From: Allomyces arbusculus | Taxonomy: Eukaryota > Blastocladiomycota > Blastocladiomycetes > Blastocladiales > Blastocladiaceae | NCBI GenBank assembly: GCA_027604705.1 | Contig: JADHYV010000003.1 | Coordinates: forward strand, 806,001 to 870,000 | Direction of reading: 5' to 3' | DNA: 64,000 bases | Part shown: one piece after another, positions 1 to 60,517 of the stretch | Layout: every line of letters begins with the position of its first letter | Position numbering within the stretch: position 1 is the first letter of the stretch | Notes under the pieces: generated by a model | Databases searched by the model: none | What the model was told of the DNA's origin: nothing | The model's input: only the letters and a program-made list of their open reading frames with translations | Translations under genes and position numbers: made by a program

Positions 1-1475
1 CTTGGGCCCTGGTGGCGAGCGGAAAATACGCCACTTTGGAGCGAAAGGCGGTCACTGAGAAGAATCGTTTCGTGGTCACGATTGAGACGGATAAACAGTC
101 CAAGCTTTGTACAACGGCGTTCCTTTTACAGGGTATTGACATCTGGGCACAGCTGGGTGAAGAAGAAAAGAGCATATAAGCTGAGCGCGGATTGGTCGTT
201 TTGTGAAGGACCCGAAAAACCTTCTCGCAACGAGGATGTTTTCTGGCCTCCCAAATGGTTGTGCCAGCCGCGCAAGGCCGCACGAAGAAGGATCTCATAC
301 AGATATCACTTGCAAATAAGAAATAGAACACCATCGCGAGAAACGGTTTGCGAGAAATGGGCAAAAGAAAAACATGTGGGCCCGCCCTGACAAGTCACGC
401 AGCTGTGGTACTGTAAGCTTCTCATTCTCACTTTATAAACCTTCACGCCCACGGTGCGTTATGGTGGAGAGCAACCGTTCTACATAGGTCGTTTATGATA
501 GTGCGGTTGACAACACGCACGTTGCCCGTTTCTGTCGCAGTAGCATGGTGCCGCCTCGGCCGCTGTTGCCGTCGCGTGCCTGGCGCTGTTGCACGTGCGT
601 CTCTGCGGTGCTCGCGCGTGACGAATATTTTTTGCGTTTTCCGCTGCAGCGTGCTGGAGCCGGTGGGGGGTGGGGGGTGGAGTACGGGAGTGGTGTCGAG
701 GAGCAGTTCGGCTCAGGTCACTTCGTCCGGTCATCGCCTCCATGCAAGTTGCCAAGAGAAAGGACTCTCGTTGCGGGACCAGGTGAGGGCGGTGAGCGAC
801 CGGGTAGGGCGAGTGCCGGCCGGTCAGTCGGCGGGGCCGGAATGAAAGGCATGCGGCATCCGTCGACACTGCAGCTCAAAGCCAAGGTGCATGACTGACC
901 GTTCAACGAAAAGCTACAGAAGGCAGAACCAGCCCTTCGCGTAACTCAATCGACGGCGCGCCGCCCAGCAATCAGCGGCTACGTTGAAGATGCCCAATTT
1001 CCATGGAGGGCGACACTTTCAAACGATGCGGCGGCGGTGAAGAAAGGCGTGGGACGCCAGAGTCCGTCGTGGAGGACGGTGAAGCAGCGAAGGGGGGCGG
1101 TGAAGGCAAGCACTCGAATTCTGGCCGCAGATGGAGTCTCCTTCCCAAAGGCGCGGTGAAGACAGAGGCAAAAGCGAGAACCAGCCGGGATGACGGGACA
1201 TCGGCGCGCCCCACCAATCGAGCCTTGCAACCTTGATCTGACGCGTTGGTCCGTCTGATCCGCCTTGCCTGCATCCCTGCGCAGCACGACCGTGGACGGG
1301 AACTTTGCGCGCCGTTGGGCTTGCTGTACACCGCGCACGTCCTTCCGTTCGCGCTGCGCCCCTTCATTCGGTTGACACTCTGTCTGCCAGCCGCCGGCCT
1401 TTGGCTGCACTCCAACGGGAAGTCACAGTTCAAACCAACAAGGACGCGTACGGGACCCCGGGCGCGTGCGAGCGC
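1..1475. other. No gene recognised; left-edge spacer
   Basis: Short overlapping frames occur on both strands, but none shows domain-like composition, a splice pattern or family motifs. A TATA-like stretch (tttataaa) lies near 432-439, but no coding region clearly follows it. The rightmost part is presumably the upstream region of the repeat-protein gene that starts at 1571. The 3' end of a gene beyond the left edge cannot be excluded. Confidence 0.5.
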
Positions 1476-1570: not shown

Positions 1571-3709
1571 ATGGATCCCGCCAACGCCACGACTCCCGTA
1601 CGTACTCTCAAGCGTGCTCTCTTCATTCTCCACCGTCGAACCTGGCTCCTCGTCGCGCTCAATTCGGAAAGTGATGGATCGCGTTGCATTCAACCACCAG
1701 GACGTGACCACCGCCGCCGACGCTGTGCCCCTCCAGGCCGCCCCGGACGCGACGATCCAGACCATGACCGTTCCCGATGCCACGACGGCCACGACGGCGC
1801 CCGATGCGACGATCCAGACCACGGCCGCTGTACGTGCACACTCTCGCATTTTTGTGCTGCCTACCGGCGCGCGCAATCCCGCTGACTTCCGTACCACCCT
1901 AACTGATCCGATCACTTCTCTATCAATCAATACTAGCCCGCCACCACCACGACGGTCACCGCGACGCCCGCGACGGCGACGACGGCCACCACCACAGCCG
2001 TGCCCGCCGCGTCCAACGACGTGTCTGCGCAGCAGCTTCAGGCACAGCAAATCGACTCGGAGTCGGGCTCGGCGCAGCAGCTCCAGGCCCAAAAAATCGA
2101 CGGCACGGACGGCTCGGTGCAGCAGATGCAGGCTCAAAAGATCGATGGCACGGACGGCTCGGCGCAGCAGATGCAGGCCCAAAAGGTGGACGGCACCGAC
2201 GGCTCGGTGCAGCAGATGCAGGCTCAAAAGGTCGATGGCACGGACGGCTCGGCGCAGCAGATGCAGGCCCAGAAGGCCGACGGCACGGACGGCTCGGCGC
2301 AGCAGATGCAGGCCCAAAAGGTCGATGGCACGGACGGCTCTGCGCAGCAGATGCAGGCGCAAAAGATCGATGGCACTGACGGCTCGGTGCAGCAGATGCA
2401 AGCGCAGCAGGCCGATGCCGCCAATGGGTCGGTGACGCAGGCGCAGGCCCAGCAGGCTCCGTCGTGCGCCAACGCAAACGCGACCCAGGCGCAAGCTCAG
2501 AGTGCCGACGCGTCAACCGCGTCGACCGCCGCTGGCCACAGCACGGGCGCCCACACGACTACGACGGCGAAACAAGCCCAGATTCAGGACCAGCACGCTG
2601 ATGTTTCGACCGCCACCGCTGGCCACGCTGGTCACCCCACGGGTGTCGCCACGGGTGCCCACGCGACCACGACGGCGAACCAGGCGCAGGTGCAGGGGCA
2701 GCACGCTGACGTTTCGACCGCCGCCGGCCATGCTGGTCACGCTGCGGGTACCAACGCTTCGACTGCTGCCGGCCATGCTGGTCACTCCGCAGGTGCCAAC
2801 GCTTCGGCTCAGCAGAGCCAGCTCCAGAGCCAGAACGTCGAGGTTTCGTCGTCTGCCGGTCACGGCCACGCTGCGGGCACCAACGTGTCGGCTTCGCAGG
2901 GCCAGATCCAGTCCCAGTCTGCCGACGTTTCGGCCGGCCACGGCTCGGCCAACGTCTCGGTCTCGCAGGGCCAGGCTCAGTACCAGTCGGCTGACGTTTC
3001 TGCCGCTGGTTCGTCGTCGGTGAACGTGGCTCAGATGCAGGGCCAGTCCCAGTCGGCTGACGCCTCGGCGACTGTTGCTCATGGCTCGTCGTCGTCGGTC
3101 TCGGTCGCTCAGGGCCAGGCGCAGTCGCAGACGGTTGAAGTGTCGGCGCACGCTGGTCACTGCCACGACGACGGCTCGTACATTGTCGCGCATCAGGCGC
3201 ATCAGGGCGCCGTGCAGCACGCCAATGGCTCGTGGTTCGGCAACTTTGACATCAACGCTCTCCAGGCGCAATTCCAGGGCCAGCACATTGACTTCTCGTC
3301 GGCGTTTGCGCACGGTTTTGATGCGTTTGCGTCGCAGTTCCAGGCACAGTCGCAGTCGATTGGCGCGTCAGCTCACGGGCACGCTGATGTCTTCGCTTCG
3401 CATGCGCAGTTTCAGGGCCAAACGATCGACGCGTCGGCTCACGGCCACGCTGACGTCTTTGCCTCACAGGCGCAGTTCCAGACCCAGGATGTGTCGGTTG
3501 CGGGCAACGGCCATGCCGATGTGTTCGCGCAGCAGGCGCAATACCAGAGTCAGGACGTCCCGGCGTCGGCTCACGGCCACGCTGATGTGTTCGCGTCGCA
3601 GGCGCAGTTCCAGACGCAGTCGATCGACGCGTCGGGCGCCAGCGTTTCGGCCTCGCAGGCTCAGGCTCAGGCCCAGTCGGTCGATGTCCACACGGTCTCG
3701 TTCTGCTAA
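1571..3709 (+). CDS. Q-x-Q-x-Q repeat protein, low complexity, function unknown
   Basis: The proposed model has three exons: 1571-1597, 1701-1829 and 1937-3709. It gives 642 residues with phase-0 junctions and gtacgt donors at both introns (103 and 107 nt). Starting at the ATG at 1674 without the first intron is an alternative. The first ~75 residues are Ala/Thr/Pro/Val-rich with no obvious signal peptide. The rest is repetitive. There are about nine 15-residue units near 2050-2460 (consensus DGTDGSAQQMQAQK plus one residue), then looser His/Ala/Gly/Thr stretches, then 21-24-residue units near 2800-3150 (core QGQxQxQSADVSA) and 3350-3640 (core HADVFASQAQFQTQ). The alternating Q-x-Q-x-Q suggests beta-strand-forming solenoid or amyloid-like coils, for example in a wall, matrix or spore protein. 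That role is inference; no family was recognised. Cysteines are rare and aromatics few outside the last blocks. Confidence 0.75.
2057..2461 (+). repeat. 45-bp tandem repeat array inside the repeat-protein gene
   Basis: About nine consecutive 45-bp units encode 15-residue repeats of the DGTDGS-[AV]-QQMQAQK type. The middle units differ by only a few bases, mostly at the I/V/A position after the lysine and at A/V after the serine, so recent expansion or homogenisation is likely. The first unit (SESGS) and last unit (ADAANGS) are the most diverged, as expected at array edges. Confidence 0.85.
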
Positions 3710-7653: not shown

Positions 7654-10416
7654 TTATTGCTTCCCATTGTCACGCGCCACGCCAAGGCGATCCAGCTCGC
7701 GAAGCCGCTTTTCCACCGCGGTCTTGATCGCGCTGCAGTTGGCCGAAACCATCAGCACCTTTGGCATGACCAACGCATCCGTACCGGATGCAAGCACGAC
7801 AGTTGGTGGTCGTGGGGGCGCCAGATCCACGTCGTCAAGCATGCTCCAGGCCTTATGCTCATGTCCAACAAATGACAGTGGCGAAACGCGCAACGGATCC
7901 GAACCACCGCGTTGTGCTTCAATCCACTGCAACGAGTGCGGGCACGACCATGACCTCCACCGCAAAAGCGAGCTCAACCGACGTGTAAACCGCGACGACC
8001 ATGGCCGCGACGGCGACGTGCGGTGTGGGAGCGGGACGGGCCCAAACGACGTCCATACATGCCGTTGGCTCGCATTGATGAACTGAACGTCAAAAGCAGC
8101 AGGTGGACGGGCGTCAGGAGGTGCAGCCATGGCCGTAGCAGGGTCCATGCCCGCCGGGTATTCGACAAGGGCCAGCGTCGCCATAAAGGTCAAGTCTTCG
8201 ACAAACATGGCGCGGTTCAAGAGGTCGTCGTCGGTCGGATAGTTGGACAATGCCGCGCGCTTGTCGTAGCTGGCGTGTTCGTGCGCATGGCTCACCGGGG
8301 AAAGGAAAAGCTGCATGACAATCGTGTCGAAGAGTTTGGGCAGTCGTGCAAACCCTAGCGCGATTGGTGTGACCATGAGCACGAGCGACGCGACCACTTC
8401 CCAGACGCCCACGCGCACAGCGTTCATGAAATACTGCTGCGGGCCGTCCGGGTCCGTCCATGACGGGTACGACGACGACCCGTCGGCAACGAGGCCGCCG
8501 GAATTGGCCGCGTCGAGCTGGATCTGGACCCAGCCGCCGTGCGTGTCGCTGAACCCTTTATCGGCGACCGTGTCGGTCCCAAACCACCGCGACAAGAGAC
8601 CCATGGTCAGAATTGGCCGCGGCTCGGCGCGCAGTGACGGGTCAAGCTTCAGTTGCTCTGCAGCGTCGACCATGACCGACTGGTCCATGCAACGCACGCG
8701 GTACTGCACGTCGCGCTGCACAATCTGCGCAGCTACGATATAGTCGCTTCGCTGCGCCGCCACGAGGGAACCCAGCGCCTTAAACCCGGCCGGGATCTTG
8801 AAATTGCGCACGATCGCGCGGCACACTTGCGCGCCGTTCAGGTACTGCATTGAGAACCCGTTCATCTCCTCGGCGGGCGTTTGCGTGATGTTGCCGTCGA
8901 GCATCCTCGTCGATCCGAGCCCCTTCAGATCGAGTCGGCACTGCGACAGGCCACACCCGATGGACGCGCTGCCCACGCAAATGGGCGATTCGACGACGCG
9001 ACCGTGAACCCCACCGAACTCTGTTCTTTGGTCAGATCAATCGTCTTGTTGACGACAAATGAGCCCACTGAGACGCTCGAAGGCGTGCACGTTTGCGCAG
9101 TCGACGAGAGTGCCATTTGCGTCGTCAACTTCTTGGCCGTCAGCTTGCCAGACGCGACCAGCGCATCCGACACGCTCAGGAGCGATGTGACCTTGAGCCC
9201 GTCCTTGGTCGTCGACGTGAGCCCGCCAAACGTCAAGTACTCAAATTCGCCCTTGGCCGTGCGCGCTGGATCGAGTGAGGCGATAACAGCCGTCACGGTG
9301 CCCGACTTGCTGTCTTGGCCCTTTTGGCCAATCGAGCTGACTTGCGCGTAGTCCATGTACTGCAGCGTGCTGGCCCGATTGGCTGGAGCGTTTGCTGGAG
9401 AGCTGTTTGGCCCCGCTGACGGATCGAGGTCTGGAGCGACTGAAAAAGAGGGAGTTGCGGCGGTGTGGTCCTTGATCCACAGGTCCACGTCGGCGGGCGT
9501 GAGACCGCACTCGACGTGGTAGCCGTTGATAAAGGCACCCTCAGTCGTCACGCCGTATTGCTGCAACGCGGCCGTGGCAGGCGTCGCCGAGTCGAGGCGA
9601 CCCGCGCTCTCGAGAATGCGCATCACAGGAATCGGCAGAACCATGCTTGAGCGACCGGCGCTGTCGGCCCAATCCACCGCGAGTAGGCGCGTTTCCTGTG
9701 ATTTCAAACAAGAAGTGAGCGGCAGTGAAATCCAGATCACTTTCCACCGGTGACTTATCACGTACGAGTCCAAGAAGACTCGCCCGCGGTGGTTCTGACC
9801 CAATCCGCACCCCGACCAGCCCGGTCCCGCGAATCACGGCTGGTTCGAGTCCAGCAGCTCGCGTCGATGCTTCTCCACCGGGTCCACCCATGCACTGGCC
9901 GTCAAATCGCATCGACATGACTTCGGCCTCGGTCAAGGTGCCGACTGTGCGAACCCATGTCGTCTCGTTGAGCAACTTGTCCTTGATCAGGGCCTGGAGA
10001 ATGGTATTGACCGCTTGCCGTGGTACGGGCTCGCCATATTGCGCCATGGGCACGGCCGTGCGCGCCGTCGCGTTCGTCGGTCGCAGCCAAACGAGCCGCA
10101 CTTGCCGATCTTGCTGGTATGCGGAAAACGCCGTTGACACGCCAGCGTTGACGATCACGCCGACCAGGGCGAGGACAAAGAGGCCCATTGCGAGGAGCAC
10201 TTGGAGAAGACCACGCGTCGATGATCGCGTCGTGGCGAATCGCAGCAGGGACGCCAACGCCGCCCAAGGATCCAGGGCCACGGCCAGCAAAAACCCGGGA
10301 CGACGCACAAACACGGTCAGGTAGACGAGGCGCACGATAAAGGTAACGGCGCCCGCGCGGGTCAGCGTTTGCCAAATAGCAAACTCGATTGGACCGAGTA
10401 AGATTTCGGCAGTCAT
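7654..10416 (-). CDS. Unrecognised three-TM membrane protein, paralogue A (frame break)
   Basis: Exon 1 runs 10416-9766, then a 70-nt intron (gtacgt...acag), then 9695 down to 7654; about 895 residues. Start MTAEILLGPIEF matches the start of the divergent paralogue. Two TM segments lie near residues 12-35 and 70-95. A large loop of about 500 residues follows, then a third TM near residue 650 (GVWEVVASLVLMVTPIALG) and a ~230-residue tail with an ALVEYPAGMDP block. Topology suggests a large lumenal or extracellular domain between TM2 and TM3. No known domain was recognised. Odd feature: the reading frame changes between about 8976 and 8925, just after the RPFAW motif shared with the paralogue. 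No plausible intron spans it, so it is a small indel, either real or an assembly error. Paralogue B is intact at the same place. Confidence 0.75.
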
Positions 10417-11282
10417 TTTGAGACGGGGACCGTTGTGGTCGTGATTGCGCGTGTGAATTGGAACGTCCTTGTGGGCAGTTGGCCAGGAGAACATGAGCGC
10501 GCGGCCGCCGCTGCTGGAGTCGTCTAAGACCGGCGGCGTGCCCGAGCCCAAGCCATACTCACATTGTCGAAGGTGTTGGCGTTGTTGATGGAGCGGCTAG
10601 TAGCGGGTGCGCACGATGGGCCAAGTGTTGCACTGCCCACAACATTCGTTGTGGGGGAAGGCCGGGCTGATCGAAATGAAGGAGCGCGCTCGGCGGGGGC
10701 TGAAGGGACCGAACGGCAAAAACACGAACGGTGGGACAGTTGTTGGGTGTCCCTGCCGAAGGCCGATCTATGTGCGATACCATCACTCCCATCCACGTGG
10801 GGCATCCATTCGCGTCTCGACTTTCTCCTTGTCTGGGCCATCGGCGAAGCACCAGCGGCACGGACGGTGCAAGCGCGCACCGCCCCGGGCAGTGGGTGCC
10901 ACTGCCCATGTGGTGCCACTGCCCATGAGCGATCGGCAGCGCGACTTTGAAGCGAATGGCATGCTACCCTCATGCCTGAGGACGTGCGCGGACGCGCCTG
11001 GCGAGAAGCTCAAAAGAAAATCTGGTGCACACGGACGCGACCCTCCGCGCCATCGACCATCATCCGCCGATACGTTCCCGAGTCCACGAGCTGCCCTCGA
11101 CGATCCCGTGGCAAATCTCCCTCAAGTACGCACGACGGCGAGCAACAGGACTTCTCCGCGCGCTCCCACTTCGCCATCAACCGCGTTTCTCAGTAGCACC
11201 ACTTCGCCGTGAGAGCTCAATCGAGCAGCGCACTGTCAGGTTCAACGTCAATCCAACCAGCCGACCAACCCGCGCCACGCCA
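10417..11282. promoter_or_regulatory. Divergent intergenic region between the two membrane paralogues
   Basis: About 870 bp separate the two head-to-head starts and should hold both promoters. No TATA box is obvious. A 16-bp direct repeat (ggtgccactgcccatg, positions 10895-10910 and 10912-10927) is present. Frames crossing the region look non-coding. Confidence 0.5.
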
Positions 11283-14200
11283 ATGGACAACGAAGTCCTG
11301 CTCGGTCCCGTCGAGTTTGCCGTTTGGCAAATGGGCACACGTATCCTCGTCGTGGGAGCTTTTGTGCAGATTTCCTACTTTGCCGTCTTTGTGCGTCGTC
11401 CCGGGTACCAAGTTGCTGTAACCCTCGACCTGGTTGAATCCGTGCGCTCGCTTGTGCGGTTTATCCGCCGATCACGTCGACCATGTCGCGATCGGTCGGC
11501 GAGCCGCAGGAACGGCTGTGCACCATATCAATTATGCCGTGTTGCACTCGCCGTGAGTCTTTTCTTGCTGGCGCTGCTAGCCACGTTTCTCGATTATGGC
11601 CTTGACGTTGCTTTCTCGGCGTACCAGCGCGATCGGCAAGTAACAGTTGCATGGGTGCGCCCGTCCAACGCGACACGGCGCATCAGCGTGCCGTCGGTGC
11701 AGTATGCAATGCCCGTGCATCGTCGCACTACCACTGCTTTGCTGCAGTCGGTCATTCAAAACAAGCTCTCCAATGCCGGCGATAAGGCGTGGGTTCGCGT
11801 GCTTGGGACCTTGACCGAAGCCGAAATCATGGCAATGCGGTATGCAGATCAGTGCGGCGACATGGCATCGGACATCACCACCGGGAGTTTGTCAAATTCC
11901 GTGGATCGGTCCGTCGAAACCGGCTCTGGCTGGCCGAGCAGCATCACGGGCAAAGGGACCGTTGGACTGAACATCGAGTCGATGTCGAGTCAGCGCTTCA
12001 ACGTGCATGGACTTGTACGTTGGTGGTGCATACCAATTTTTCGCGCTCATTTGCGATCCATATTGTAATTATAACATGCGGACTGCTCATTCTCCATGCA
12101 AACGACCTTCTCCACCTGATAGCATCAACGCATCTACCCCATTGAGGTGTCTGACGACGTCGACCATGCGATCATGGCCGTGCCGTTTCCGCAGCCCAAC
12201 GACGAGAGCACGCGCGTGCGTATCGGCGGCGCTTCCACAATGCGAAATGGTCGGCAAGACGACGCCGACACGACGGCCACGCAGTTTGGGACCACGGCGT
12301 TTGGCGATTTCATTAGCGCGTATGAAATGTTGTGCGGCCAGTCCCCTGACCAGGTCGGCCAGTGGCTTCGCGACCACTCTGCGACGGCATCTGGGCGTCG
12401 ATTCTCTGTGGCTGTCGACCTTGGCCGGACCAGGATTGCAGGTTCGTCAATGCTGACCAACGCGTCGAGTGCACGTGGTGGGATCTACGAAACGCGCCCG
12501 ACGGCGTTACATTACCTGGACTACAATTTCGCGAACCCGGGCGCGGCGCCCAACACGGCAACGGGTTCCGCGGCCGCCGTTCTCTTGCACATGGAACCGG
12601 ACCGCGCGGCCAAGGGCGAGTACGAAATGCTCCTGTTTGGCTCGCTGACGACGACGACCAATGGCACGATGGTCTCGCCACTCGTCATGGTCTCCGAGGC
12701 GGTCGCTGCGGCCCGGCAACTCGACGCGAAACGGCGGATCGTTTTTCAAATGGCCGTCGAGTCAGCCACGCAGAAGTGCACCAAGATGACCGGATCTGAC
12801 AACCAGTTTACGATCAGGAACAGAGCCATTGAGCTCGATGACGGCACGGGTGTCTCGGACGACGCCAAGTCGCCGTTTGCGTGGGTCAAAACGGCGATTC
12901 CAAACCAGTCGGACCCTGTCCACTGCCGCATCGCGCTGTCCGGGCCCATGTCGATGCGGTCGGCCGACAAGGACGTGGCGCCGTCGCCGGCTGTGCAACT
13001 CAACGAGTCGCTGCAGTACCTGAGCGGCGCGCAAGTGTGCAAGGTTACGATGCGCACGCGCCGCAGTCCCGACCCGTTGCAGTCGACCAAGTTCACGCAG
13101 CCGGGCGATTACATTGCTGTTGCGCGTATTGTCGAGCAGGATTCAGAGCACCGGCTTCGATGCCTTGACAATGCCGTCTTGGACTCTGTCGCACCATCTC
13201 TGTCGCAAGCGCAACAACAAGCTGGCGGCGACGAGCTCCGCCCCGCGCTCACACTCGGTTTCCTGTCACGCATAACCGGCCAGCTTCTGCGCAATCAGGA
13301 GCAGTTTTTGGGCCAGTGGGTCATGAACCGGTTCGAGATCACCGAGTTGGGCGAGCTCGTGGCGAGTGACTCCTTCCCGTCGTGGACGGACCCAGACGGG
13401 CCGCAGCTGTACACGGCGCCCGCCGTGCGCGTGCAGGTGTGGGAACTTGTCGGGTCGATTGCGCTTCTTTTATTGACGCTCATGCTTGCCGCCGCTGATA
13501 TCCCGTCACTCTACGATACGGTTGTAACGCAACTGTTCCTGTTCCCGTTGCGTCGCACGGTCGGCGAAAAGGAGTGCGACGAGTCGACGACGACGCGCCC
13601 AAATCGATCTTCTGCTATTCCGCTCGTCGAAAATCTCATGCTTGCCACAACGCTAGTGCTCATCGAGTACCCCGCAGGCATGGACCCGACGCTCGCAATC
13701 GAGTCCAAGTCGGGGTTCCGCTCGCGGACCATTTTCGACGTTCAGTTTGTGCACGCTGACCAGAAGGAGGTGTGGACGCCGTTTGGCCCGATTCCGCTCG
13801 ACCCGACCGACCCACCAATCGCCGTCGCCGACAGGAATGATGCGGAGCAAACCGAGGTCGCTCTCCCGTGGCCTCCGCGGTCGGACGCGTCGACCGGAAC
13901 TTTTGTCGTGTCGGCGGTGGGGCAGTTGGAATTGGTGGGAGGCTGCAGCACGACACTGATTTCGCCGCCCACGAAGCTGGACCGGTCGAGCATTGGCACG
14001 TTGCCGTTAATTTCGGCATGCAACGACCGAGATTCTCCACCCAGCAATATTTGCGTGGCTGCCGCCTTGAGTGAGGACGACGACTTGGAAGTACCGTTGG
14101 GTGCTGCTGTGTCGTCAACGTTTCACCGCAGGATACTCGAGTATGACCCGGCAATAATGCCGTTTGTGATCATGGTGTCGTCCAACTACCGCGCCATTTT

Positions 14201-14297
14201 GGCAAGGAAGAAGAGCCGGATCAAGGAGCTGCGCGAGCAGGACGGGTTGGTGCTTGCAAGCTGTTGTGATGTTGAGACAGGTGCAGTGGTGGAGTGA
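11283..14297 (+). CDS. Unrecognised three-TM membrane protein, paralogue B
   Basis: Two exons, 11283-12014 and 12147-14297, split by a 132-nt intron at exactly the place where paralogue A has its intron, in phase 0; 960 residues. Start MDNEVLLGPVEFAVW aligns with paralogue A. Shared blocks include SAYQ-DRQV, LGTLTEAE, SGAQVC, SWTDPDGPQ, EYPAGMDP and FDVQF...VWT-FGP. TM segments lie near residues 12-40, 95-115 and 670-700. Paralogue B has about 15 extra basic residues between TM1 and TM2. The large loop between TM2 and TM3 contains several Cys that may form disulfides if it is extracellular. The pair arose by an inverted duplication or by rearrangement of a tandem one. No function can be assigned. 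Confidence 0.82.
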
Positions 14298-57914: not shown

Positions 57915-58891
57915 CAGCGCTCGCCCCTTCACACGCTCGCACCTGCCCTCCCGAGTGTTGACCGCCCGGTGGACTTGGTTGCTCTGCTCGATTCCGACGA
58001 ATCCCTGCGCCCTCGCACCCCCGTTCTCGTCCTAGACGTTAGAGCGCACCGGTACGGATAATCTTGGGCCCCGACGCTGTCGTTCGTCTCTTTGCCCCTT
58101 TGTGTTCCTGCGCTCGACCCGGCCCACTACGCGGACATGCTGCACGAACCCGCTCCGACCAATGCATGTACGACCACTTGGGCACCCGATGCCCGCTATC
58201 ACATCGCCGCTGCCCACGACCACCATCATCGTGGTCAACCACGAGGTGGACGTGGCCGCCCGTCGCTGTCCGCCGTCAACGATGATGGCCACTGGCCACC
58301 CAACACGAGGTGTGGTAGTGTCGTGGTGGTCGCCTCGTCATGGTGGAAAGCCTTGGCGCGCATCGACCCCCAGTCATGGTGGGGGGCCGGCGATTGGTCG
58401 GGTGGGTGGGTGTGCAAAGGCGCGTGATGTGTGCGGGGTTGACGGCATGTGCGTGCGTGCGCCAAGGCCGGCGGGCCCATGCGCGCGGCGCAAGGCTAAT
58501 CGCGTGCGCTCGCGCCAAGTATCATGATTATTTTGCGCAACTCCCCTCTCCACTTCGCCACACCCCCACTTCCACTTGCCTGTACCCCTCATTTACCCCC
58601 CGCCTCCCCCCACCTTCATCACACGCCGGCACCGGACACCACCACTCACCATCGACTTGTCCTCTCTCCCAGACACGCACGCACGCACGCCGCCGCCGAC
58701 GAGCTCCCCGCCCGTCGTGACGACTATAGACTCTCAATAGACCGCCGACGCGCCCGACCCTGGACCGTCTGCACCAACCCCGCATCGTCGTGCTGTTGCC
58801 TGCCTCGTGCCCACAGCCGCCGCCGTCGTACCGCGCTTGCCGCCACCTCCACTCTCCACCCACCCGCATCACCACCATTCTCGCCCTCATC

Positions 58892-60517
58892 ATGAAGGTG
58901 ACTCTCGCGACCGTGCTTGCCGCGTTGACCGTGGCCGCTACTGTGAACGCCGACAAGTCGTCGGTTGTCCCTGGCAAGACGCCGACGGGCCAGCAGACCT
59001 ACGAGCAGGGCCAGATCCCGACGGTCATCAAGTATGCGCTGCAGCAGCTCAACGAGATTCGGGTCGCCAATGGCCTTACCAAGCTCTGCATCAACAAGGC
59101 CCTGCAGACGGCCGCGCAGGGGTCGTCCGACTGGCAGGCCGCCAACAAGCAAATGGCGCACATGGCCGACGGCCAGATCAAGTCGCGCTACTCGACGGCC
59201 GGCTACGACTGGGGCGGTTACGTTGAGAACGTGGCCGTCAACGTGATTGGCGTCGACTCGACGTCCAAGGGCACGTGCTTTGGGTCCTCGCCCTACGTCA
59301 AGGTCGCCGACGACACGACCTCGGCGCAGTACGTGACCAACTGCCAGTGGTGGAACTCGGAGGGCCACCGCAAGAACATGCTCACGCCTGAGGTCAACCA
59401 GGTCGGCATCGCCTTCACCAAGGGCGAGTGGGAGGGCTACGGCAACTCCTACTACTGGACCCAGGACTTCGGTATCTCGGCGCAGCCCTGTGTCTCGGAC
59501 GAGGTCATCCACACGACGCCCGTGCAGAAGGTGCCGTCGGTGCCCGAGGTCAAGGTTGTGACGGTTCAGCCGTCGCAGCCCGCTGTCGTCACCGTCACGC
59601 CCGCGGCCCCCAAGGTCGTCTACGTGACCAAGCAGCCTGTGCAGCCGCAGGTCGTCATCAAGACGGTCACGCCCGAGGCGCCCAAGGTCGTCTACGTGAC
59701 CAAGCAGCCCGAGCAGCCCAAGGTCGTCTACGTGACGCAGTCCAAGCCCGTGTGCCCCGGCTCGCCCGACTGCCCGGTCACGACCACGAAGTCGACGCCC
59801 GCGCCCGTGGTCACGGTCACGGTGCCCGTCCAGCAGACGACGCAGGTCGTTTCGATCCCGGCGACCACCCAAACGGTCACGCAGACCGTGTCGATTCCCG
59901 ACTCGCCGGCCTCGACCGCCCCCGTTGTCACGGTTACGGCCACGCAGCCCGCCTACACGCAGACCTCGCAGGTGGTCATTGTCCCGACGTCGACCATCGA
60001 CGTGCCCGAATCGCCGGCCGAATCGACGCCCGTGCCGTCGGCCACCTACCCGGTCGATGTGCCCACGTCGCCCATTAACACGGTGCCCGCGGCCAAGTGC
60101 CACAAGGTGACGCGCACCATCACCAAGTGCAAGAAGACGGTCCCGACCACCACGCCCGCTCCGGTCGTGCCCGAGGTCCCGACGGCCACTTACCCGGTCG
60201 TTGTTGTCCCGACCACCACCTCGGCGCCGCCCGCCGACGAGGAGTCCAAGGAAGATGACTACGGATCGCTCGAGGTCCCCGTTGCTCCGGTGACGTCAAC
60301 TCCCGCTGCCCCGGCCACGACCACTCCGGCCTACGGCACGACGACTGCCGTTGTCAAGTCGACGACCTCGCAGGCGCCCGCGTACGGTAACCCCGTGACG
60401 CCCGTTGCTTCGGCTTCGTCGGCGGCCTCGACGCCCGCGGCTACGGCCACGCCCACGCCCGCGTACGGCGGCAAGAGCCTCGTGGACGGCAACTCCGACA
60501 GCGACTCGCTGTACTAG
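58892..60517 (+). CDS. Secreted CAP/SCP-domain protein with Pro/Thr/Val-rich tail
   Basis: One exon, 541 residues. A signal peptide (MKVTLATVLAALTVAATVNA) is followed directly by a CAP domain of about 170 residues. Visible are LNEIRVANGL, a His in MAHMAD, the Glu in VENVAVN, and the second His in WWNSEGHRKNML, the residues that form the CAP cavity; YYWTQDFGI closes the domain. The HRKNML form resembles the YkwD-like and PR-1-like secreted group. The remaining ~320 residues are Pro/Thr/Val-rich with repeats of APKVVYVTKQP and VVTVTxP type and few charged residues, so they are likely O-glycosylated and wall-associated. A small Cys pair (KCHKVTRTITKCKK) sits in the tail. No GPI signal is seen; the C-terminus is acidic/Ser (SDSDSLY). 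CAP proteins can bind sterols or act at the cell surface; the role here is not known. Confidence 0.9.
   Translation: MKVTLATVLAALTVAATVNADKSSVVPGKTPTGQQTYEQGQIPTVIKYALQQLNEIRVANGLTKLCINKALQTAAQGSSDWQAANKQMAHMADGQIKSRYSTAGYDWGGYVENVAVNVIGVDSTSKGTCFGSSPYVKVADDTTSAQYVTNCQWWNSEGHRKNMLTPEVNQVGIAFTKGEWEGYGNSYYWTQDFGISAQPCVSDEVIHTTPVQKVPSVPEVKVVTVQPSQPAVVTVTPAAPKVVYVTKQPVQPQVVIKTVTPEAPKVVYVTKQPEQPKVVYVTQSKPVCPGSPDCPVTTTKSTPAPVVTVTVPVQQTTQVVSIPATTQTVTQTVSIPDSPASTAPVVTVTATQPAYTQTSQVVIVPTSTIDVPESPAESTPVPSATYPVDVPTSPINTVPAAKCHKVTRTITKCKKTVPTTTPAPVVPEVPTATYPVVVVPTTTSAPPADEESKEDDYGSLEVPVAPVTSTPAAPATTTPAYGTTTAVVKSTTSQAPAYGNPVTPVASASSAASTPAATATPTPAYGGKSLVDGNSDSDSLY

Follow-up and report, generated by a model that had tools for sequence, protein, structure and literature searches.

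Curlin repeats carry the motif S-x5-Q-x-G-x2-N-x-A-x3-Q, and bactofilin filaments have a hydrophobic core. Cereal prolamins and Gln-rich silks are Gln-rich, Lys-poor repeat proteins encoded by multigene families; they take the secretory route, and their units are Pro-rich or made of Ala blocks. Among fungi, the HET-s prion domain is a beta-solenoid amyloid with Asn/Gln ladders, according to the passages that treat it in PMC3321046 and PMC7556116; the former passage gives its elementary motif as occurring twice and places it in a cell-death system.

We compared these systems with a gene of the window (the whole 64,000-nucleotide stretch of DNA analysed) and with its paralogs in the same assembly. 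HET-s has its motif twice, whereas in this family most of the protein consists of four-Gln units, 2 to 26 per kept frame, these counts being low for frames ended by contig ends or N runs and excluding the extra Q-rich frames of three genes. No companion domain was found in the seven members scanned. Bactofilins differ in that the window protein has no Pfam match and a Gln core instead of a hydrophobic one. The family resembles prolamins and silks in being Gln-rich, Lys-poor and multigene, but the window protein has no Pfam match. The likeness to HET-s, bactofilins and beta-helix proteins is one of design only.

The preliminary description had suggested a likeness to curli in principle, which as family membership fails on Pfam match, motif and leader. 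The Curlin family was absent at E<=1 from the six of 15 paralogs scanned and at E<=10 from the window protein. The curlin motif occurs 0 times in the 16 members, as does its relaxed form Q-x-G-x2-N-x-A. CsgA (Curlin_rpt) has Q-x-G-x-x-N-x-A, whereas the sequences here show four-Gln alternation in a leaderless eukaryotic protein.

The same description knew of no fungal family of this kind, and the domain searches agree with it. With the window protein, Pfam returned no family at E<=10, and in seven members scanned it returned none above the cut-off; NCBIfam returned none in three members. At E<=1, three of six paralogs scanned had weak Pfam matches below the cut-off. In one of the seven members, DUF2807 (GIN domain) was matched with E 0.00086; at 19.5 bits, under the cut-off of 24.2 bits, this best score led us to reject membership. 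Prolamin-type storage protein membership was also rejected, the window frame having 6 Pro in 590 residues and no Pfam match, though some other members have Pro-rich stretches.

Searched against PDB with phmmer at E<=1, the window frame had no match, and an 11-member profile at E<=10 matched one chain, that of the leucine-rich repeat 4r58 (E 0.095). With the C-terminal 161 aa, tblastn found no match in phages and plasmids; submitted to IMG/VR and the GTDB species genomes, these 161 aa and the 11-member alignment resulted in pattern matches and no confirmed relative. No such family was found in the portions consulted of the literature on functional amyloids, curli, beta-solenoids and Gln-rich Blastocladiomycota or Allomyces proteins. 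The proteins would belong to a kind already known, beta-repeat structural proteins with Gln ladders, with no relative in the collections searched, which covered phages, plasmids, IMG/VR and GTDB, other fungi being outside their scope.

Window gene and repeat unit

All features of the window gene are given on the + strand. The extent first proposed for the gene, 1937..3709, is an open frame of 590 aa with a TAA stop; however, it represents only the last of three predicted exons. The gene models, which are predictions from the DNA sequence alone, give a full protein of 642 aa, with the start codon (ATG) at 1571 and the coding sequence interrupted by two GT..AG introns. The TATA box TATATAAA (1476-1483) is located 95 bp 5' of the start codon. 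Predicted exon 1 (1571..1597) comprises the nine codons of MDPANATTP, with the start context CACCATGG and without a signal peptide. It is followed by predicted intron 1 (1598..1700; GTACGT...CAG, with a donor like those of seven other family genes), predicted exon 2 (1701..1829), which encodes a Thr/Ala/Pro-rich leader segment, and predicted intron 2 (1830..1936; GTACGT...TAG). Exon 3 (1937..3709, 590 aa and the stop) bears the repeats and is composed of Ala (20.7%), Gln (17.8%), Ser (12.4%) and Gly (9.3%), with no Arg, 8 Lys and about 1% Pro.

As the preliminary description had it, three blocks of differing unit length were recovered in exon 3: an array of 15-aa units, an irregular block and a C-terminal block of 22-residue units. 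The identity autocorrelation of the exon peaks at lags 15 and 22. Tandem Repeats Finder delimited the 45-bp array (2066..2400), with 7.4 copies of the 15-aa unit GSxQQMQAQKxDGTD. In the irregular block (2483..3160), Q-x-Q-x-Q units are joined by His/Gly/Ala/Thr linkers and the cores lie 22-44 residues apart. A central module, CHDDGSYIV...NGSWFGNFDI (3161..3253), was recognized by eye. The C-terminal units of about 22 aa, of the HADVFAxQAQFQTQSIDAS type, follow with a 22-residue period (3245..3685), and the protein ends in the tail VDVHTVSFC and the stop (3680..3709), a shortened version of the tail VDVHSATVAHPSFC typical of the family.

The shared Q-x-Q-x-Q core claimed for these blocks is strongly enriched. 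The core Q-x-Q-x-Q-(0-2)-[AVILM]-[DEN] occurs 21 times in exon 3, against a mean of 0.27 and a maximum of 3 in 2,000 residue shuffles. The shorter pattern Q-x-Q-x-[QN] occurs 38 times (2,000 shuffles: mean 3.8, maximum 15). The proposal of one ancestral unit that expanded several times is also supported, both inside the window gene and across about 16 genes.

We gathered 257 four-Gln units from 16 frames with a strict pattern; the pattern itself imposes the four Gln, and the units are related by duplication, so that the 257 describe a conserved rule and not independent events. This rule reads V-x-A-x-Q-x-Q-x-Q-x-Q-x-(V/I)-x-(A/V), or position by position A-D/S/N-V-S/F-A-x-Q-A/G-Q-x-Q-x-Q-S/T-V/I-D/N-A/V-S. 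The share of V/I/L/M/A is 93% at the four inward flanking positions and 17% at the nine outward positions, which supports the in/out beta alternation supposed earlier. In 238 unique units, the inward-outward difference is 0.757, whereas 1,000 within-unit shuffles reached at most 0.062. The linkers between units are rich in Gly (23%) and His (14.5%), and the commonest unit-to-unit spacings are 24, 22, 25 and 20 residues. By eye, the members differ in length chiefly in loops and unit number. With the L028 frame set aside, Gln makes up 10-20% of the residues across members, and Lys and Arg are few, 0 to 9 per kept frame.

The protein sequence is under purifying selection across the family, as judged from pS and pN obtained as simple counts with multiple hits uncorrected. 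The seven array units compared with one another gave pS 0.32 and pN 0.05. Over the last 185 aa, the window gene was compared with all 15 paralogs, which resulted in pS of 0.46-0.69 and pN of 0.13-0.43; pS exceeded pN in each of these 15 pairs and in four of four further pairs. Codon usage, considered as a proxy for expression, gave mixed signs: Ser codons of the family favour TCG, as do those of a beta-tubulin, but GC3 is not above that of other genes. The locus L047, labelled EF1a in this comparison, reads as an EF-Tu.

Chance or non-coding origin is ruled out by the shuffles and by pS/pN. Low-complexity filler without positional register is contradicted by the alternation and by its loss on within-unit shuffling.

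Gene family and upstream regions

The 590-aa frame gave 39 matches in the window's own 25.9-Mb assembly. BLAST with this frame and two other members returned the same 15 loci and otherwise pieces of them. A 16th locus, C4:361k, is divergent and His-rich; it was read beside a known member, and its own search returned itself and two family loci. The 16 loci are distributed over contigs C3 (two, the window gene included), C48 (two), C52 (three), C135, C43, C41, C17, C18 and C4 (four). These counts are lower bounds, and three members are ended by contig ends. The members at the end of C135 (L025) and at the start of C52 (C52:1, L026) are near-identical (pS 0.14, pN 0.02) and may be one gene divided by the assembly, or two alleles. 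Because of this pair, the safe count is 15-16 genes. The only relic seen is a decayed copy with in-frame stops (L035, C18:53.7k; G000:C18:53680-54536).

As judged by eye, the tail VDVHSATVAHPSFC is present in recognisable form in 15 of the 16 members, being shortened in the window gene and absent at C4:384k. The central module, also by eye, has its full form in 9 of the 16, and DDGSW-like pieces are found in the others. The divergent member (L031:6858-8405, corresponding to G000:C4:360857-362404) adjoins the typical member C4:357k. It is His/Asp-rich (His 15%, with HDHHDH runs) and has the family-like tail VDVHSAMAAAPTFV; this composition suggests that it may bind metal.

Upstream DNA was also read for seven other family genes, and their layout is similar to that of the window gene. 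The TATA box was found in 6 of the 8 promoters, with a near form in the other two (C48:43k and C43). In six of the seven other genes, CAGCAT comes soon 3' of the TATA or near-TATA, and all seven have an ATG. The first exon is also short in six of the seven and longer at C48:43k, and the first donors are GTACGT, GTACGC or GTATGC, with GTACTT at C48:43k.

A 7-mer scan of the 800 bp 5' of the eight genes resulted in TTCACCG/CGGTGAA, which 7 of the 8 contain, compared with 3 of 74 window chunks, the motif having been selected after inspection. Four copies lie in the window at 1035..1160 (+), with starts at 1035, 1077, 1098 and 1154, 417-536 bp 5' of the ATG. Extended to 1.5 kb, the upstream stretches hold 19 copies in 7 of 8 genes, C48:43k having none. 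Among the controls, a single copy turned up over 14 comparison loci and another over 7 downstream stretches; 59 kb of the window held 3. Among five hold-out members, two have two copies, one has one copy and two have none. The fetched regions hold 10 further intergenic copies outside those upstream stretches and 5 inside family genes. Genome-wide, the close CGGTGAA pairs numbered 14 against 10 for the reversed control; five of the 14 are located upstream of family genes, four genes in all. The best reading of these counts is that the family genes would be co-regulated, with an upstream element common to most members read.

The idea of a zoospore regulon was rejected, no link to flagellar genes having been found: in the ten loci of IFT57, rhodopsin and tubulin, the 1.5 kb preceding the matches had no CGGTGAA. 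The sole copy among the 14 comparison loci is at L050, an EF-Tu-domain match; these stretches lie 5' of the domain match and are not proven promoters.

Fold, cellular place and competing explanations

Our leading explanation, held tentatively, is that the genes form a co-regulated family of about 16 cytosolic cross-beta structural proteins in a zoosporic fungus. With fair confidence, we infer that each unit forms a single long amphipathic beta strand with a Gln-ladder face, joined to the next by Gly/His loops. The inner face of the strand would be hydrophobic at both ends, with the four-Gln ladder between. With less confidence, units of the same chain, and probably also those of different chains, would stack into a beta-solenoid or a cytosolic cross-beta fibre held by ladders of Gln side chains. 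More weakly, the His-rich loops might line the outside and either bind metal or respond to pH, the tail might set the end or register of the fibre, and unit number might tune its length. Such a fibre would serve inside the cell as structural or paracrystalline material, made at one life stage when many of the family genes are jointly switched on.

AF2 was run on two segments, both without homologues. For the C-terminal 161 aa, the model had pLDDT 74 and pTM 0.75 and consisted of strands throughout, seven in number and 13-18 residues long; pLDDT fell from 74 to 41 over the five models. Full exon 3 had pLDDT 50, with 262 of 590 residues below 50. The models are all-beta and solenoid-like, and the structural matches listed are mostly beta-helices and beta-solenoids. 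Among the known systems closest to the family are the right-handed beta-helix proteins Cthe_2159 (4peu), HxuA (4i84), tapirin (6n2b) and HMW1 (2odl). Foldseek with the 161-aa model gave no match at or below 0.001 in PDB or BFVD; the top BFVD match (1.1e-3) was a fragment from an animal herpesvirus record. The beta-solenoid fold is unproven because AF2 invents such folds for repeats, having given a beta-solenoid for 32 of 78 random perfect repeats in the part of PMC11795689 that reports this test.

The low pLDDT over much of exon 3 would also suit disordered low-complexity proteins, in which flexible Gln/Ser/Gly/His repeats serve as hydrating, desiccation-protecting or phase-separating cytosolic filler. 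This alternative is unlikely, but it agrees with the A/Q/S/G/H composition and few bulky residues, and the section of PMC11878562 on fungal low-complexity regions describes them as generally Ser/Gln-rich and Lys/Arg-poor. Disordered filler conserves composition and not register, whereas in these proteins the in/out alternation is strict over the 257 units and length changes centre on the loops.

A silk-like antiparallel sheet, with one strand per unit and hairpin turns at the Gly/His loops, differs from the leading explanation in stacking mode alone, and the likelihoods of the two overlap; taken separately, it is improbable. The unit is palindromic by residue class (V-A-QQQQ-I-A), and an antiparallel arrangement would pair hydrophobic with hydrophobic and Gln with Gln. 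Because of this palindrome, the parallel solenoid and the antiparallel sheet are both allowed. The aromatic or large-hydrophobic content of position 10 agrees at 0.51 between adjacent units and at 0.60 between next-but-one units, as an antiparallel arrangement would favour, whereas the AF2 models, for what they are worth, match beta-helices. Positions 4 and 12 have the highest agreement between adjacent units (0.88 and 0.68), which duplication alone would give. Such neighbour statistics do not decide between parallel and antiparallel stacking.

Where the proteins reside was approached through their N-termini. The best 9-residue hydropathy within the first 40 aa was 0.31-1.40 in seven predicted family N-termini, against 2.5 in a secreted-type control, the CAP-domain protein of the window. 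No signal peptide or hydrophobic leader was found in these seven N-termini, nor a membrane span in the 16 main frames, in which the highest 19-residue average was 1.32. By default, the proteins would be placed in the cytosol, a location suggested only by the absent leader. The wall, cyst or zoospore-matrix role floated as speculation in the preliminary description loses ground, since the seven N-termini lack signal peptides and no frame has a span.

In the corresponding alternative, which is doubtful, the fibre would be secreted or sit on the surface as an adhesive, wall or cyst-matrix material, and its export would need no signal peptide or would depend on a missed start exon. The solenoid-like matches do include adhesin and secretion domains, and one paralog has the weak, below-cut-off similarity to DUF2807 (putative autotransporter adhesin). 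However, the hydropathy of the N-termini is below that of the control, and the TATA or near-TATA lies close to the ATG in the eight promoter-bearing genes read.

A nitrogen and carbon reserve of Lys-poor, Gln-rich spore proteins, digested at germination like cereal prolamins, would suit the high Gln, the few Lys and Arg (L028 set aside) and the many gene copies with a common upstream element, but it is the least probable explanation: the inner-face pattern is far stricter than storage alone requires, the proteins lack a leader whereas prolamins enter the secretory path, and the window exon is poor in Pro, unlike the Pro-rich prolamins, although in the C4:473k member Pro accounts for 105 of 1225 residues.

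The cytosolic cross-beta family could also be extended to an intracellular eukaryotic counterpart of curli, which we consider rather unlikely. About 16 co-regulated genes would then encode Lys/Arg-poor four-Gln-ladder proteins that co-assemble into a cytosolic cross-beta organelle or a paracrystalline zoospore body; fibre length and the response to pH or metal would be set by the number of units and the His loops. A paracrystalline inclusion of zoospores is recorded in one chytrid order and absent in another in the parts of PMC6492006 consulted, whose Blastocladiales passage makes no mention of it. If the cross-beta explanation is right, a flagellated fungus devotes an entire set of co-regulated genes to an intracellular Gln-ladder fibre. 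Polyglutamine aggregation would then have a useful counterpart in nature, and the family would offer a candidate protein for fungal zoospore inclusions. The strict unit is also a clean model of how far the core of a beta strand can be glutamine.

Other loci in the window and the genome

Two sets of similar frames with hydrophobic stretches, oriented divergently at 7654-10596 (-) and 10980-14297 (+) of the window, resemble a duplicated pair; one frame of each set was scanned, and neither had a Pfam match. At 58730-60517 (+), the window encodes a CAP/SCP domain protein (PF00188, E 1.9e-9) with a hydrophobic leader, whose frame contains tandem 72-bp and 36-bp arrays (59594-59736) encoding PKVVYVTKQPEQ-like repeats.

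Elsewhere in the genome, IFT57 and two type I rhodopsin genes were found, L039 (G000:C7:515k) and L040 (G000:C15:370k). The L039 frame also has a guanylyl cyclase segment (CyclOp-type fusion), which aligns closely with PDB chains of nucleotide cyclases and of bacterio-rhodopsin/guanylyl cyclase fusions, presumably from Blastocladiomycota. IFT57 and this rhodopsin-guanylyl cyclase fusion point to a zoosporic fungus, probably one of the Blastocladiomycota; the passage of PMC9616733 on such fusions records them in Sanchytriomycota and Chytridiomycota as well.
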